Source: a virus. From it: a stretch of 21,985 bases of DNA. A model generated the notes under the pieces. It was not told the origin of the DNA. It made no database searches and saw only the letters and a program-made list of their open reading frames with translations. Within the stretch, counting starts at the first letter, position 1. Each line of letters starts with the position of its first letter. The stretch spans positions 1 to 21,985 of IMG/VR virus record IMGVR_UViG_3300030906_000068, one strand, 5' to 3'. Of this stretch, positions 4,474 to 10,279 are shown piece by piece. A program made the translations under genes and the position numbers.

Positions 4474-5112
4474 ATGAACATCGATTTCGAGACGCCGATG
4501 GCGGCGCTGCTGGCGTGGTGGCAAGCCAAGTGCACCATCGCGCTGACGGCCGATGCGACGGAGGCGTCGGCGACCTTGTCGAATGTCAGCACCTTTACCG
4601 GCCTGTTCGAGGGACTGCCGGTCACCGGACCCGGCGTCGTCGAGGGCGCGACCATTCTGACACTGGATCCCGGCGCCTCGGAGATCGTCCTTTCCGACCT
4701 GGTCGGCGCCGATGTGACCGACGGCGCGTTCCAGGCGGGATTTCAGACCGTCGACCGGCGCGTGCAGCACTGGGACGATTGCACGGCCCAGCCGGCGCTG
4801 TTCCTGCGCCGCATCGGGGCGACCGACGATGAGGACCGCGACAGCGGCTACATCATCACCACGCTCGAATGCGAGGCGTGGATCGAATGCAAAAGCGGCC
4901 AGAATCCCGACGTCGTGCCCGACACCGGCCTGACCGCCCTGAACCGCCTGGTCCGGCAAAGCATGGCCTATGACGACCCTGGCGGCGACAACCGCTTCAC
5001 CATCGCCGGCCAGGTCTATTGGGCCCGCATCGCCGGCCGCTCGGACGCATCGCCTGGCGACCAGGGGCCGCAAGCCCTCGAAAAGATGCCTGTCCGCATC
5101 ACGCTGCCCTGA
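4474..5112 (+). CDS. Tail terminator (tail completion) with inserted beta domain
   Basis: It probably caps the tail tube and joins it to the neck. I chose ATG 4474 (212 residues), which has TGAGGA and GGGA upstream. A TTG 30 bases earlier lies inside the previous gene and is less likely. The C-terminal two thirds carry terminator features: QPALFLRRIG (106-115), a strand ending in LECEAWIEC (131-139), DTGLTALNRLVRQS (150-163), then the FTIAGQVYWARIAGR strand (175-189) and MPVRITLP at the end. Residues about 21-90 look like an added beta-rich domain (FEGLPVTGPGVVEGATILTL), of a type seen in tail fibres ('GxxVxGxGIxxGTxI'). It directly precedes a small gene and the tube protein, as expected. Confidence 0.7.
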   Translation: MNIDFETPMAALLAWWQAKCTIALTADATEASATLSNVSTFTGLFEGLPVTGPGVVEGATILTLDPGASEIVLSDLVGADVTDGAFQAGFQTVDRRVQHWDDCTAQPALFLRRIGATDDEDRDSGYIITTLECEAWIECKSGQNPDVVPDTGLTALNRLVRQSMAYDDPGGDNRFTIAGQVYWARIAGRSDASPGDQGPQALEKMPVRITLP

Positions 5113-5349: not shown

Positions 5350-6105
5350 ATGACCGTCCAAGCCCTCAAGCCGACCTTCGGCGCCGGCCGCGTTTTCGCG
5401 ACCGCCAATATCGCCAACCCGACGCCGGCGCGTGCCCTGGTGCCGCAGTCGCAGTCGATCGATTTTAAGCGCAAGACCGAAAGCCTGTTCGGTGAAGGCC
5501 AATTGGCCGTTGCCGTCGGCGCCGGTGAAATGGACGTGACCGGCAAGGTCGAATACGGCGCGGCCAATGCGCGAATCTTCGCCGACATCATGTTCGGCGA
5601 TGGCTCGACGACCGGCCAGTACCTGGAAGCGGACGGCGAAGCCGGGACGATCGCCGCGACGACGCCCTTCATTGTGACCGTGGCCAATTCCGTCACCTGG
5701 CTGTTCGACCTGGGCGTCGTTTATGGTCCGACGCAGGCCAAGATGACCTGCGTTGCATCGGGGCCGGTGGCGGGCAAGTCCTACACGGTGGCGGCCGGCG
5801 TCTATACCTTCGCCTCCGCCGACGAGGGCGTGGCCGTGGCGATCTCCTATGGCTATTCGGTGTCGACGGCGGGCGAGACCATCTCGCTGACCAACCAGCC
5901 GCAGGGTCTGATCGGCAGCTTCCAGGCCGTCCATGTGCTGCCGTGGGGGACCGCCCAGGACATGTTCGTCTTCAATTCGTGCATCGCCGGCAGCGCCGGC
6001 GTGTCGATGAAGAAGAGCGGCTTCGCCAGCAATACGCTCGACTATACGGCCTGCGCCAACAGCAACGGCGTGCTCGGCACCGCGACCTTCGCCAACGCCG
6101 CGTAA
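5350..6105 (+). CDS. Major tail (tube) protein with inserted beta module
   Basis: This 251-residue protein has the size and position of a siphophage tail tube subunit, after the terminator and before the chaperones. The start ATG 5350 has AAAGGA (5336-5341) upstream. The first 85 residues resemble tail tube proteins (FKRKTESLFGEGQLAV, MDVTGKVEYG, IFADIMFG), and the end has FQAVHVLPW and an N/S/T-rich strand region. Residues about 122-172 hold an inserted segment with YTVAAGVYTFASADEG (145-160) and AISYGYS, nearly the same as in the adaptor at 2069-2962. Such inserts often sit on the outside of the tube. Tail tube identity is by context and pattern. Confidence 0.75.
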   Translation: MTVQALKPTFGAGRVFATANIANPTPARALVPQSQSIDFKRKTESLFGEGQLAVAVGAGEMDVTGKVEYGAANARIFADIMFGDGSTTGQYLEADGEAGTIAATTPFIVTVANSVTWLFDLGVVYGPTQAKMTCVASGPVAGKSYTVAAGVYTFASADEGVAVAISYGYSVSTAGETISLTNQPQGLIGSFQAVHVLPWGTAQDMFVFNSCIAGSAGVSMKKSGFASNTLDYTACANSNGVLGTATFANAA

Positions 6106-6110
6106 ATCCG

Positions 6111-6479
6111 GTGACCGACGACGAACGGCGCGCGCTGGGGCAACGAAGGCGGCTGGTGTTCGGCAACATCGCCAACGGCGTGCCCACGCCGCAGATCATG
6201 GTCGACCTTCAGCTGTCTCAGCTGGAGGTCGACCAGGCGCGCCAGTTCGTCGCTAAGAAGATCACGCAATATCTGGTGCAGCGCCGCCAGCCGACCATCG
6301 CCTGCAATGACATGGGCGCCATTCGTGCCAACCGCGGCCGCCTGTTGGCCGTCCTTCAGCGGATGGGCAATATCGACCTGTCGACCGACCTGATCCTCGA
6401 CATCAAAATCCAGGATATCGACGCCCATGCGGGCACGATTGCCGACATCAATCACAGCATGCAAAAGGCCTATAAATGA
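6111..6479 (+). CDS. Small helix-turn-helix-like phage protein
   Basis: I chose GTG 6111 (122 residues). A longer frame reaching back to 5943 lies inside the tube gene and is rejected. The stop at 6477-6479 overlaps the chaperone start by ATGA. Residues 18-50 have a helix-turn-helix-like layout (FGNIANGVPTPQIMVDLQLS, then QLEVDQARQFVAKKI), similar to small families annotated as hypothetical in phage tail modules. The rest is helical with RANRGRLLAVLQRMGNIDL. DNA binding is possible but unproved. A protein at this place could also be an extra tail assembly factor. Confidence 0.65.
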   Translation: MTDDERRALGQRRRLVFGNIANGVPTPQIMVDLQLSQLEVDQARQFVAKKITQYLVQRRQPTIACNDMGAIRANRGRLLAVLQRMGNIDLSTDLILDIKIQDIDAHAGTIADINHSMQKAYK

Positions 6480-6946
6480 CCGAACCCGCTACCGAATTCG
6501 ATCCGGAGACGACCCCGACCGTGACCCTGGCCGGAAAGATGTGGCCGGTGCCTGTCCTGGCATGGAAGCAACTGCAGTATTGTCGCATGGAGTTTCTGGA
6601 ACTAACGGCATCTATCAACGCGGCGATCGCGGCGTCCGACGACGCGGTCGAGGTCTCGGGCGATAAAAAGCGCGAGAGCGAGGATGCGCGGGGCATACGA
6701 CATATGGGCGTTCTCGCCGAAGTGCTAAACGGCTTGTCGAACGGCGATTTTGGCCGCCTGGTCATCATCCCATTGCATTCTGCCGTATCCGCGCTGCATC
6801 CGTCAGTCACACGCGATGAATTTGCGGAGTGGCCCATTACCGAGGGCGAGCGCCAACTAGCATGGCTCACGGCGCGCCGGCAATCGGGCCTATTCGTGAT
6901 GAGCGGCGAGGCGCCTCCAAAGGGGGAGACAAAGGGGGCGGCCTAG
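6476..6946 (+). CDS. Tail assembly chaperone, short form (G-like)
   Basis: This 156-residue protein would coat the tape measure during tail assembly, like lambda gpG. It lies between the tube and tape-measure genes and starts at ATG 6476, overlapping the stop of the previous gene. The N-terminus has TVTLAGKMWPVPVLAWKQ (15-32), a typical short beta pair and hydrophobic strand for this class. The rest is mostly helical with LTASINAAIAASDDAV. Near its end, two AAAGGGG heptamers (6919-6925 and 6931-6937) permit a -1 frameshift to the downstream frame, giving the GT-like longer form. The stop TAG is 6944-6946. Confidence 0.75.
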   Translation: MTEPATEFDPETTPTVTLAGKMWPVPVLAWKQLQYCRMEFLELTASINAAIAASDDAVEVSGDKKRESEDARGIRHMGVLAEVLNGLSNGDFGRLVIIPLHSAVSALHPSVTRDEFAEWPITEGERQLAWLTARRQSGLFVMSGEAPPKGETKGAA

Positions 6947-7215
6947 TCCCCAACCCAAACTGGGAGCGCGTCGTCTTAATCGCTTGCCGCTACTTTGGCA
7001 GCAGCCGAGAATATTGGTGGAACAACCTCACCTGGGCACTCTTCGAAGAAATCTCTCAACATCTCGCCGAAGAGCCGCCGGCCGATCGCTTGATCAGGAC
7101 CTACTTCGAAATCAACAAATGGTGGTCGCCTCCTACGCCGGCAGGCTCGGCGAAAGAGCCTGTCGAGAGCGATGGAGAGCTGTGGGAAAGCGGCCTTCCA
7201 GAGACGACGGATTGA
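6476..7215 (+). CDS. Tail assembly chaperone, long form (GT-like) by -1 frameshift
   Basis: If ribosomes slip back one base at either AAAGGGG, translation continues in the frame that ends at TGA 7213-7215, giving a 246-residue product. Zero-frame codons around the first site are CCA AAG GGG, so the heptamer has the canonical X XXY YYZ phase. The second site (ACA AAG GGG) has the same phase. The added C-terminal part, after the slip, has WERVVLIACRYFGSSREYWW and LTWALFEEISQHLAE, then FEINKWWSPP. The domain has no obvious start codon and no ribosome-binding site of its own, which favours frameshifting. In phages the GT-type tail domain recruits the tube protein to the tape-measure/chaperone complex. 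Frequency cannot be read from the sequence. Confidence 0.72.
6919..6937 (+). promoter_or_regulatory. Two tandem -1 frameshift heptamers (AAAGGGG)
   Basis: The first heptamer is 6919-6925 and the second 6931-6937. Both are in the phase A AAG GGG, and both lie within 30 bases of the zero-frame stop. The spacer between them is GAGAC. Either slip yields the same product length, but the five residues between would differ. A weak 4-bp stem (6954-6957 with 6961-6964) follows; no strong pseudoknot is obvious by eye. Confidence 0.75.
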
Positions 7216-7246: not shown

Positions 7247-10200
7247 TTGACGAACAACATTGCCGTCTCAGTCACCGCCGACGTGCAAGACCTGGTGGCG
7301 AAGCGCGCCGTCATGTCGGCCGAACTGAAGGCGGCGACGGCCGATTTGAACAATTTCGCCAGAACAGCCGCGAAAAGCGGGACTACGGCAGAGTTGCAAA
7401 CCGGAATGCTTGGCGCTGCCGACCGCGCCGAGAAGCTGCGCAATCAGATCAAGCTGGTCGATGCCGAACTGAAGACCCTTCGGGCCGGCAGCGGCCTGGC
7501 GACCGTCGCCGGCGATGCCGGTCAGGCGACCCAGGCCATGGGCGGCCTGCAGCACGGCTCAGCCGGCGTCACGCGCGAATTGATCGTTATGGGCCGGGAG
7601 GCCTCACGTGGCAATTTCAGCCGCATGGCCGGATCGGCTACGATCTTGGCGGGAAAGCTGGGCCTCATCGAGGCGGCGCTTACACCCGTAGGCCTCGCCA
7701 TCGCCGCGGTCGCGGCGGTGGAGATAGCCGCGACCGTAGCAACGGCGCAATACGAGGCCGAACAGCAAAAGCTCATAGCCACCACGATCGGCCTGGGCGC
7801 GGCGTCCGGTCTGACGGGTGAGCAGTTGCAGCAATCGGCTGTACAGGCAGCAAAGGCTAGCGGGCAATCGGTTTCCGCGTCGCTTGCATCCGCAGAGGCC
7901 TTCGCTGGCGCCGGCGTAAGATCACAAGGCACGATTCGGCAATTGTCGGCCGACGTGCAGACGTTCGCGGCCCTGGTCGGCCAAAAGGCTGCGGACGCCC
8001 AGAAGACACTGGCTGATGCCATGAAGGACCCGACCAAGGGTGCGGAGGAGCTGAATTCCAAGCTCGATATTCTCGATAGCACCCAACTGCAGCAAATCAA
8101 GACCGCTCAGGCGGCAGGCGACCAAGAAAAGGCTGACGCTATCCTGTTGCAAGCGCTACAGAAGCGTATCGACGAGGCAAGGGGCGCCGGCGTGGGCCTG
8201 AACGGCGAGTTCGGCCAACTGGCTTCGGGCGCGTCGAACTTCTGGTCATGGCTCGGCAAGGTTAATGAGCAACTGACCCTATTCAACGAATTGGGCTTTG
8301 CGTCAGGACGGGTCCAGGCGCAGGCGCAGGCGAATGCCGCCAGCGCCGCCGCGAAGGCTTCAGCTGAGGCGCAGCTCAACAAGGCCTCAGCCGGCGGCGC
8401 CGAGGCTTTCGCCAAAACACCCGAGGGCGAAGACGCGGCCAAGCGCAACGAGCTCGCCGAGGGTTTGTCGAAGGCCAAGGGGGCGCTCGAGGCCGACACG
8501 AAACTCCATGGCGCTAATTCTGACGCCGTCAAGCAGGACAGACAAACCGTCGCCGATTACACGCGGGCCGTGACGACATATGTAGGTGAGGCGCAAAAGA
8601 AGACCGAGATCGACGCCCTCGACGTCAAGATCACCGAGGCGCGCCACGCCCACAACAAGGCGTTGATCGAGGATCTGACGACGCAAAAGGCATTGCTTTC
8701 GCAAGCTGGCGTTGTTGAAAGTGCCGCCGACGCTGCAGCGCTTTCCAAAGGCTCTGGCGACGTCGCTGGCGCCAAGGGCGCCGGGGGCGCGAAGCCCAAG
8801 AATGATGAAGTCCAGATACTCGAGCAGCAATTGCAGACGCAGCTTGAGGACAAGAAGGATTATTTCGCCGACTCCAAGGCCGACGAACTGAGATTTTGGA
8901 CCGAAAGCCTGGCGCAGACCAGGCTGAGCGCGGAGGAGCAACGCCAGGTCAAGACCAAAATCTACGGCCTCGATAGGGAAATGGCTCAGCAGGCCTATCA
9001 AGAGCAGATCGCGCTATCGAACGATAGGATCGAAGCCGATCGCGGCGATTGGTCCAGGCAACAGGCCGACTGGGTGGCCAAACTTGTCTATATCGAGAGC
9101 TTCTACAAGCAAGAAAGTACCGAGTACCAAAACGCCTATCGCGAATACGAAGCGGCCGAGCGCACGCATGAGGCGTCGATGGCGCAGATTAAGCGTGATG
9201 CCGAAAAGCAGGCGCTGGACCAACTCAAGGAATCGTTGACGACGGCAAAAACCATTCGCGACGAGGATGCCAAGACCCAGGAATCGCTGATCAACGCCAA
9301 TGCCGGCGCCGGGCCGATCGGCGCCATCCAGGCGGCAATGCAGGTCGCCGAACTGAAGAAGCAGCTCAACGCCCAGGACTTGGCCGACACTGAGGCGACC
9401 TACCAGGCAGAGGATGCGCTGCGCGAGCAGGCAATTGCGCGGGCAATCGCATCCTACACGGCGGATTCAACGCAAGCCCAATCCGCGGTGGATGCCAAGA
9501 TTGCCGCCGACCAGGCCTATTACGACAAACGCCGGATCATGGAGGATCAGGCGACACAACAGTCGATCCGCGATGCCCAGGAGATACAGTCGAAATGGAT
9601 GGGCGTCACCCAGCCGATCGGCTCAGCCTTCACGTCGATGTTCCAGGGCATGTATTCGCGGCAGGAAACCTTTGCCCAGGCGGCCGCGAAGGCTGGCGAC
9701 CAGCTCCTGTTCAAGCTGATCGACGTCGCCGTCGAGGATCTCGAAAAGTGGGGCGCGACGCAGCTCGCCAAAAGTGGAATCATCAAGGCGCAGGCCGCGA
9801 TACAAGGCGCCGCACAAACGACAGCGGCATCTGGCGCGGCGATTGCGCAAAAAGCGGCCGACGAAGCCGCGGTGACGGGCTACGCCGGCGAGGCGGCGGC
9901 TGCAACATTCGCGGCCTATTCGCCGCTTTCTATGGTCGACCCCGGCATACCAGCCACGATGGCCGCCGCGGCTTTCGCCCAGACGATCAGTTTTGGCTCT
10001 TTTAGCAAGGGTCTTGATACGGTGCCTCGCGACATGATCGCCCTGGTCCACGCCGGCGAGAAAATCATGCCGGCTTCGGACAACGCCGCCATCAGGGAAG
10101 CGGTCAAGGGGAATGCCTCGGGTAACGCGGGCGCCCGTGGCGGAGCGCAAACCATCAACAACCACTACAGCCCGACCATAAATGCGCCGGCGCAGTCCGG

Positions 10201-10279
10201 CATTTCGGGCATGCTCGAGGACCATGGCCACGAGCTGCTGACCTGGTTGGGAAAGCAACAACGTAAAGGCAGGATCTGA
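7247..10279 (+). CDS. Tail tape measure protein
   Basis: This is the largest gene (1010 residues). It sets tail length and is injected with the DNA. The start is TTG 7247, with AAGGA (7235-7239) seven bases upstream; no ATG gives a better site. The N-terminus is coiled coil (about 8-80). A hydrophobic segment, TPVGLAIAAVAAVEIAATVATA (about 146-168), is followed by long helical, Ala/Gln-rich regions. The C-terminal part has the family signature GLDTVPRDMIALVHAGEKIMP. Length in known tape measures scales at roughly 1.5 Angstrom per residue, which would suggest a tail near 150 nm. The gene immediately upstream of the distal tail protein agrees with siphophage order. Confidence 0.92.
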   Translation: MTNNIAVSVTADVQDLVAKRAVMSAELKAATADLNNFARTAAKSGTTAELQTGMLGAADRAEKLRNQIKLVDAELKTLRAGSGLATVAGDAGQATQAMGGLQHGSAGVTRELIVMGREASRGNFSRMAGSATILAGKLGLIEAALTPVGLAIAAVAAVEIAATVATAQYEAEQQKLIATTIGLGAASGLTGEQLQQSAVQAAKASGQSVSASLASAEAFAGAGVRSQGTIRQLSADVQTFAALVGQKAADAQKTLADAMKDPTKGAEELNSKLDILDSTQLQQIKTAQAAGDQEKADAILLQALQKRIDEARGAGVGLNGEFGQLASGASNFWSWLGKVNEQLTLFNELGFASGRVQAQAQANAASAAAKASAEAQLNKASAGGAEAFAKTPEGEDAAKRNELAEGLSKAKGALEADTKLHGANSDAVKQDRQTVADYTRAVTTYVGEAQKKTEIDALDVKITEARHAHNKALIEDLTTQKALLSQAGVVESAADAAALSKGSGDVAGAKGAGGAKPKNDEVQILEQQLQTQLEDKKDYFADSKADELRFWTESLAQTRLSAEEQRQVKTKIYGLDREMAQQAYQEQIALSNDRIEADRGDWSRQQADWVAKLVYIESFYKQESTEYQNAYREYEAAERTHEASMAQIKRDAEKQALDQLKESLTTAKTIRDEDAKTQESLINANAGAGPIGAIQAAMQVAELKKQLNAQDLADTEATYQAEDALREQAIARAIASYTADSTQAQSAVDAKIAADQAYYDKRRIMEDQATQQSIRDAQEIQSKWMGVTQPIGSAFTSMFQGMYSRQETFAQAAAKAGDQLLFKLIDVAVEDLEKWGATQLAKSGIIKAQAAIQGAAQTTAASGAAIAQKAADEAAVTGYAGEAAAATFAAYSPLSMVDPGIPATMAAAAFAQTISFGSFSKGLDTVPRDMIALVHAGEKIMPASDNAAIREAVKGNASGNAGARGGAQTINNHYSPTINAPAQSGISGMLEDHGHELLTWLGKQQRKGRI

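Follow-up and report, generated by a model that had tools for sequence, protein, structure and literature searches.

The analysed window is a stretch of 21,985 nucleotides from an IMG/VR virus record (IMGVR_UViG_3300030906_000068), and the tail genes described here all lie on its plus strand. The first of them, at 5350-6105, encodes a putative major tail tube protein with 49-69% identity across relatives. Its product matches phrog_8234 (4.6e-29, PHROG search), a family of unknown function, and the tail tube identity is proposed from position and from conservation across relatives. This ORF also served as the conserved upstream marker for fetching relatives. Next, a small conserved ORF of unknown function occupies 6111-6479, with 50-57% identity in relatives; no Pfam or PHROG match was found for it when read from 6105. 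In the relatives examined, this small ORF directly adjoins the following gene on its upstream side.

That following gene, at 6476-6946, encodes a 156 aa product which we assign as a zero-frame, G-type tail assembly chaperone from its gene order, and which has homologues in all relatives. Its stop codon, TAG, is at 6944-6946. Overlapping its end, an open stretch in the -1 frame runs from 6820 to 7215, with frame and motif both kept in relatives; from about position 6940 it encodes the GT domain, recognised by the conserved motif RYF..YW..PP. Finally, the tape measure protein is encoded at 7247-10279 (Pfam TMP_2, 4.3e-23).

Some further observations concern the upstream part of the window. The head-tail connector (2069-2962) and the tail tube protein both match phrog_8234, and share a segment of the form YTVAAGxYTFAxAD. 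Upstream of the connector, a 389-aa ORF (878-2047) has, as judged by eye, a methyltransferase-type N-terminal half and a glycosyltransferase-like C-terminal half.

In terms of function, ORF 6476-6946 and its -1 extension probably constitute a tail-chaperone pair of the G/GT type. The ORF is placed between the tail tube and tape measure genes, as the G gene is in such pairs, and the extension overlaps the end of G with no usable start of its own. Gene order and frame arrangement are the basis of the assignment, because no known family is matched by either product: searches of Pfam, PHROG and PDB gave no sequence match for G or GT. Fold searches, including one with an AlphaFold model of G (pLDDT 80), likewise returned only non-significant matches, a few of which carry names of tail assembly proteins. 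Likeness to known chaperones in sequence or fold is not strictly defining, as G/GT proteins diverge widely.

Relatives were collected from viral contigs by scans whose queries were the chaperone, baseplate, tail tube and tape-measure proteins. These gave 17 divergent loci, which together with the window make the 18 loci counted below. Among annotated phages, no close relatives of G/GT were found by DNA or protein. A distant relative of different architecture (L066) was left outside the counts; around its position 1570 it carries instead an in-phase GGGAAAC, a canonical slip-site type. A genome scan with a GT profile gave a sole match, in a Bdellovibrionales contig (L014), which was rejected as a chance match.

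We observed that the GT domain lies in the -1 frame in every relative examined, so that the frame arrangement is conserved, which agrees with the earlier note's proposal of a tail-chaperone-like gene with -1 frameshifting ahead of the zero-frame stop. That note had also raised the alternative that the downstream domain has a start of its own. The -1 frame of the window does hold a GTG at 6829 and an ATG at 6862, but both are upstream of the slip site described below, within the coding region of G, and no usable start was found between the slip site and the core of the GT domain. Moreover, in 9 of the 18 loci the GT frame has no ATG, GTG or TTG ahead of the conserved RYF motif. Translation from an own start codon is therefore highly improbable, and ribosomes very probably get to the domain by frameshifting.

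The window contains just two copies of the heptamer AAAGGGG, at 6919-6925 (site 1) and 6931-6937 (site 2), both on the plus strand and 12 nt apart. In the frame of ORF 6476-6946 each is read as A_AAG_GGG, the codons over the region being CCA AAG GGG GAG ACA AAG GGG GCG GCC TAG. The identical, same-phase pair before the zero-frame stop is thus located as the earlier note had described it. The number of copies is unremarkable, with 1.78 expected on both strands and at least two found in 56 of 100 shuffles. The close spacing of two in-phase heptamers is mildly unusual, as paired in-phase XXXYYYZ heptamers at most 15 nt apart within the ORF overlap appear in 2.6% of mononucleotide shuffles. The G gene holds no other in-phase XXXYYYZ heptamer. 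A slip at either site would give a product of 246 aa, equal in length, and the two products would differ at residues 151-152 (GD or ET), that is, at two residues and not at the five previously suggested.

In the case of site 1, the sequence in the window is AAAGGGGGAG, in which AAAGGGG (6919-6925) overlaps a G_GGG_GAG core (6922-6928). A zero-frame GGG-GAR preceded by G is present in 18 of 18 loci, with the register of one locus (L061) reset by eye, so that a conserved in-phase slippery heptamer lies within the ORF overlap throughout, as in G/GT pairs. The overlapping A_AAG_GGG is found in the window only among the loci, while three others (L030, L035 and L036) carry C_CCG_GGG in its place. 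At the protein level, this site encodes a Gly-Glu pair that does not vary in the alignment of the G proteins (12 loci), where mean column identity is 32%. By eye, no obvious Shine-Dalgarno-like element was seen in the 25 nt 5' of site 1. Transcriptional slippage is unlikely at G-runs just 5 long. Three more distant loci (L008:5824, L062:2181 and L068:2592) keep G_GGG_GAR and have no second G-run; the last of them is able to form a different hairpin 3' of the slip site.

A contrasting picture is seen at site 2. In 17 of the 18 loci, window counted, the first GGG is followed at a distance of exactly 12 nt by a second in-phase GGGG, the exception being L018. Its slippability is not conserved in the same way. 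The base before site 2 is C in 8 of 17 loci, whereas at site 1 none of the 17 has a C there (Fisher p = 0.0009, a value that overstates independence because the loci are related), and such a site is not slippable, since the C forbids -1 re-pairing of tRNA-Gly. Conservation of both sites in relatives, which had been proposed as a check, accordingly holds for site 1 and for the GGGG of site 2, and fails for the capacity of site 2 to slip.

One relative (L037) is informative here. It reads CCG GGG GAA GAG TAG GGG GAG, with a zero-frame stop ahead of site 2, so translation in the zero frame never extends to site 2 there; the second G-run and a facing CCCCCC nevertheless persist past the stop. Of note for this locus (4543-4587), G stops one codon past the slip-site GAA (GAG TAG), the hairpin lies beyond the stop, and the zero-frame tail is the shortest among the relatives.

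The facing C-run is itself general. A CCCC lies 10-15 nt past site 2 in 17 of 17 loci, compared with 1 of 55 control in-phase GGGG (Fisher 1.3e-15, which again overstates independence among related loci, and for a distance criterion chosen after the data were seen). The count was 16 at first, and became 17 once the register of L061 was corrected. Two relatives (L038 and L040) have extra codons ahead of the conserved IDF motif, yet their hairpin keeps its register relative to the slip site. Conservation of the second G-run and of the facing C-run, with slippability not conserved, is the pattern that a stimulatory hairpin would give.

A possible protein-level cause is that the repeated GGGG encodes a conserved glycine-rich linker of the two proteins, with no role for the RNA. 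Gly or Arg-Gly is indeed encoded in both frames at these positions. A null model that keeps each -1 frame amino acid and samples its codon by usage, though, predicts GGGG with CCCC in 1.3 of 17 loci, and the element was observed in 17. Furthermore, just 13% of the glycines encoded in the tape-measure and tail-tube ORFs of the loci use GGG, and L037 has no zero-frame coding at site 2. A linker is thus a very unlikely explanation for the repeat.

In the window, the predicted stimulatory hairpin spans 6934-6951, with a 5' arm at 6934-6939 (GGGGGC), a loop at 6940-6945 (GGCCUA) and a 3' arm at 6946-6951 (GUCCCC), so that the zero-frame stop sits within it. The computed folding energy is -10.8 kcal/mol for the hairpin alone and -12.3 kcal/mol in a 29-nt context, where the MFE structure takes 99.5% of the ensemble. 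The spacer is 8 nt from AAAGGGG and 5 nt from GGGGGAG, and in 17 of 17 loci the second G-run begins 5-6 nt past GGGGGAR. Published rules for stimulators (PMC4066793) ask for a hairpin of at least 17 nt, placed 4-10 nt past the motif, with a stability of at least 7.6 kcal/mol and a G-C first pair followed by at least three more pairs. By these rules the hairpin at 6934-6951 qualifies as a stimulator for site 1, and the heptamer of site 2 lacks any stimulator that satisfies them.

Two folding results are weak points of this reading. RNAalifold reported no covariation, with the four core stem pairs nearly invariant G-C and no two-sided changes; one core pair is GU in 7 sequences. Single-sequence folding z-scores were weak (mean -0.45 over the 18 loci), because shuffled G/C runs fold too.

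We next consider the proposal that both AAAGGGG heptamers slip in series in the window phage, giving more frameshifting or a backup. The two are in phase, are the only in-phase XXXYYYZ heptamers of the gene, and belong to a type with efficient shifting in E. coli (PMC4066793). A tandem double slip site calls for a second site that is slippable, conserved as such and provided with its own stimulator, and this is not what was found: relatives do not conserve the slippability of site 2, the arm of the hairpin takes in part of the second heptamer, and L037 keeps its G-run even past a stop codon. Serial slipping is thus unlikely, and the earlier note's reading of the second heptamer as a further or backup slip site is not supported.

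The explanation we favour, with high confidence, is that a G/GT-type pair undergoes standard -1 programmed frameshifting at site 1, with site 2 acting mainly as the 5' arm of the hairpin. Ribosomes would slip back one base at AAAGGGGGAG (6919-6928) while stalled at site 1 by the GC-rich hairpin at 6934-6951, and the shift would join the G-type ORF (6476-6946) to the -1 extension ending at 7215. We infer the occurrence of frameshifting and its efficiency from the frames, phase, conservation, hairpin potential and spacing, all obtained by computation.

A ribosome at the second AAAGGGG would already have opened the hairpin, and any slip at site 2 would for this reason be unstimulated and minor. 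Since E. coli ribosomes shift readily on A_AAG_GGG, the window phage may make a low or minor use of site 2. Of the 18 loci, the window alone happens to have AAAGGGG at site 2. It may be that here alone the arm of the hairpin has turned into a second functional A_AAG_GGG slip site and doubles as a stimulator, which we regard as improbable; if true, one sequence would be both the stimulator for the first slip and a slip site for ribosomes that read through it. Judged from the sequences, the locus carries an ordinary, well-conserved phage tail-gene frameshift signal and not a double slip site.

In terms of known systems, the slip motif of phage lambda is GGGAAAG, and the window differs from it in having AAAGGGGGAG. 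Lambda-type G/GT pairs (PMC5009743) are alike in the order tail tube, G, GT and tape measure, and in a -1 shift near the end of G with the zero-frame stop soon after; a difference is that for the G and GT of the window no similarity to known chaperones could be detected, either in sequence or in fold.

Another likeness is found in GGGGGAA, a recurring “fivetwo” slip motif seen in about a thousand annotated phage frameshifts (PRFect, PMC10885494), where tRNA-Glu re-pairs on GGA through a G:U pair (PMC10885494). The same motif was proposed as the slip site of corynephage phi16 (PMC5506516), and we confirmed in the phi16 sequence that it has the same phase. The actinobacteriophage “fivetwo” sites (PMC10885494) and phi16 (PMC5506516) share with the window the G_GGG_GAR core, in the same phase and at the end of the G gene, and in phi16 a structure is likewise predicted downstream of the slip site. 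The differences are that the window has GAG and not GAA, and that here the structure is a short hairpin in which a G-run 12 nt downstream forms the 5' arm and mimics a second slip site.

Lastly, X_XXZ_ZZN heptamers with a 3' hairpin, as known from E. coli and the IS3 family (PMC4066793), are resembled by the A_AAG_GGG of the window with its hairpin 8 nt on, within the rules given above. That source places A_AAG_GGG among the high-level shifters of E. coli (PMC4066793); the window phage may have another host, with other lysine tRNAs. The relatives, in contrast to this class, drop A_AAG_GGG, and only G_GGG_GAR is common to all.

The elements described here, G_GGG_GAR, 5-6 nt and a GGGG hairpin, would form a compact and strongly conserved cassette in a tail chaperone family of uncultivated phages. 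An apparent repeat of a slip site can thus really be a hairpin arm. Current family libraries miss these tail chaperones, and the cassette could aid in finding and annotating such pairs.
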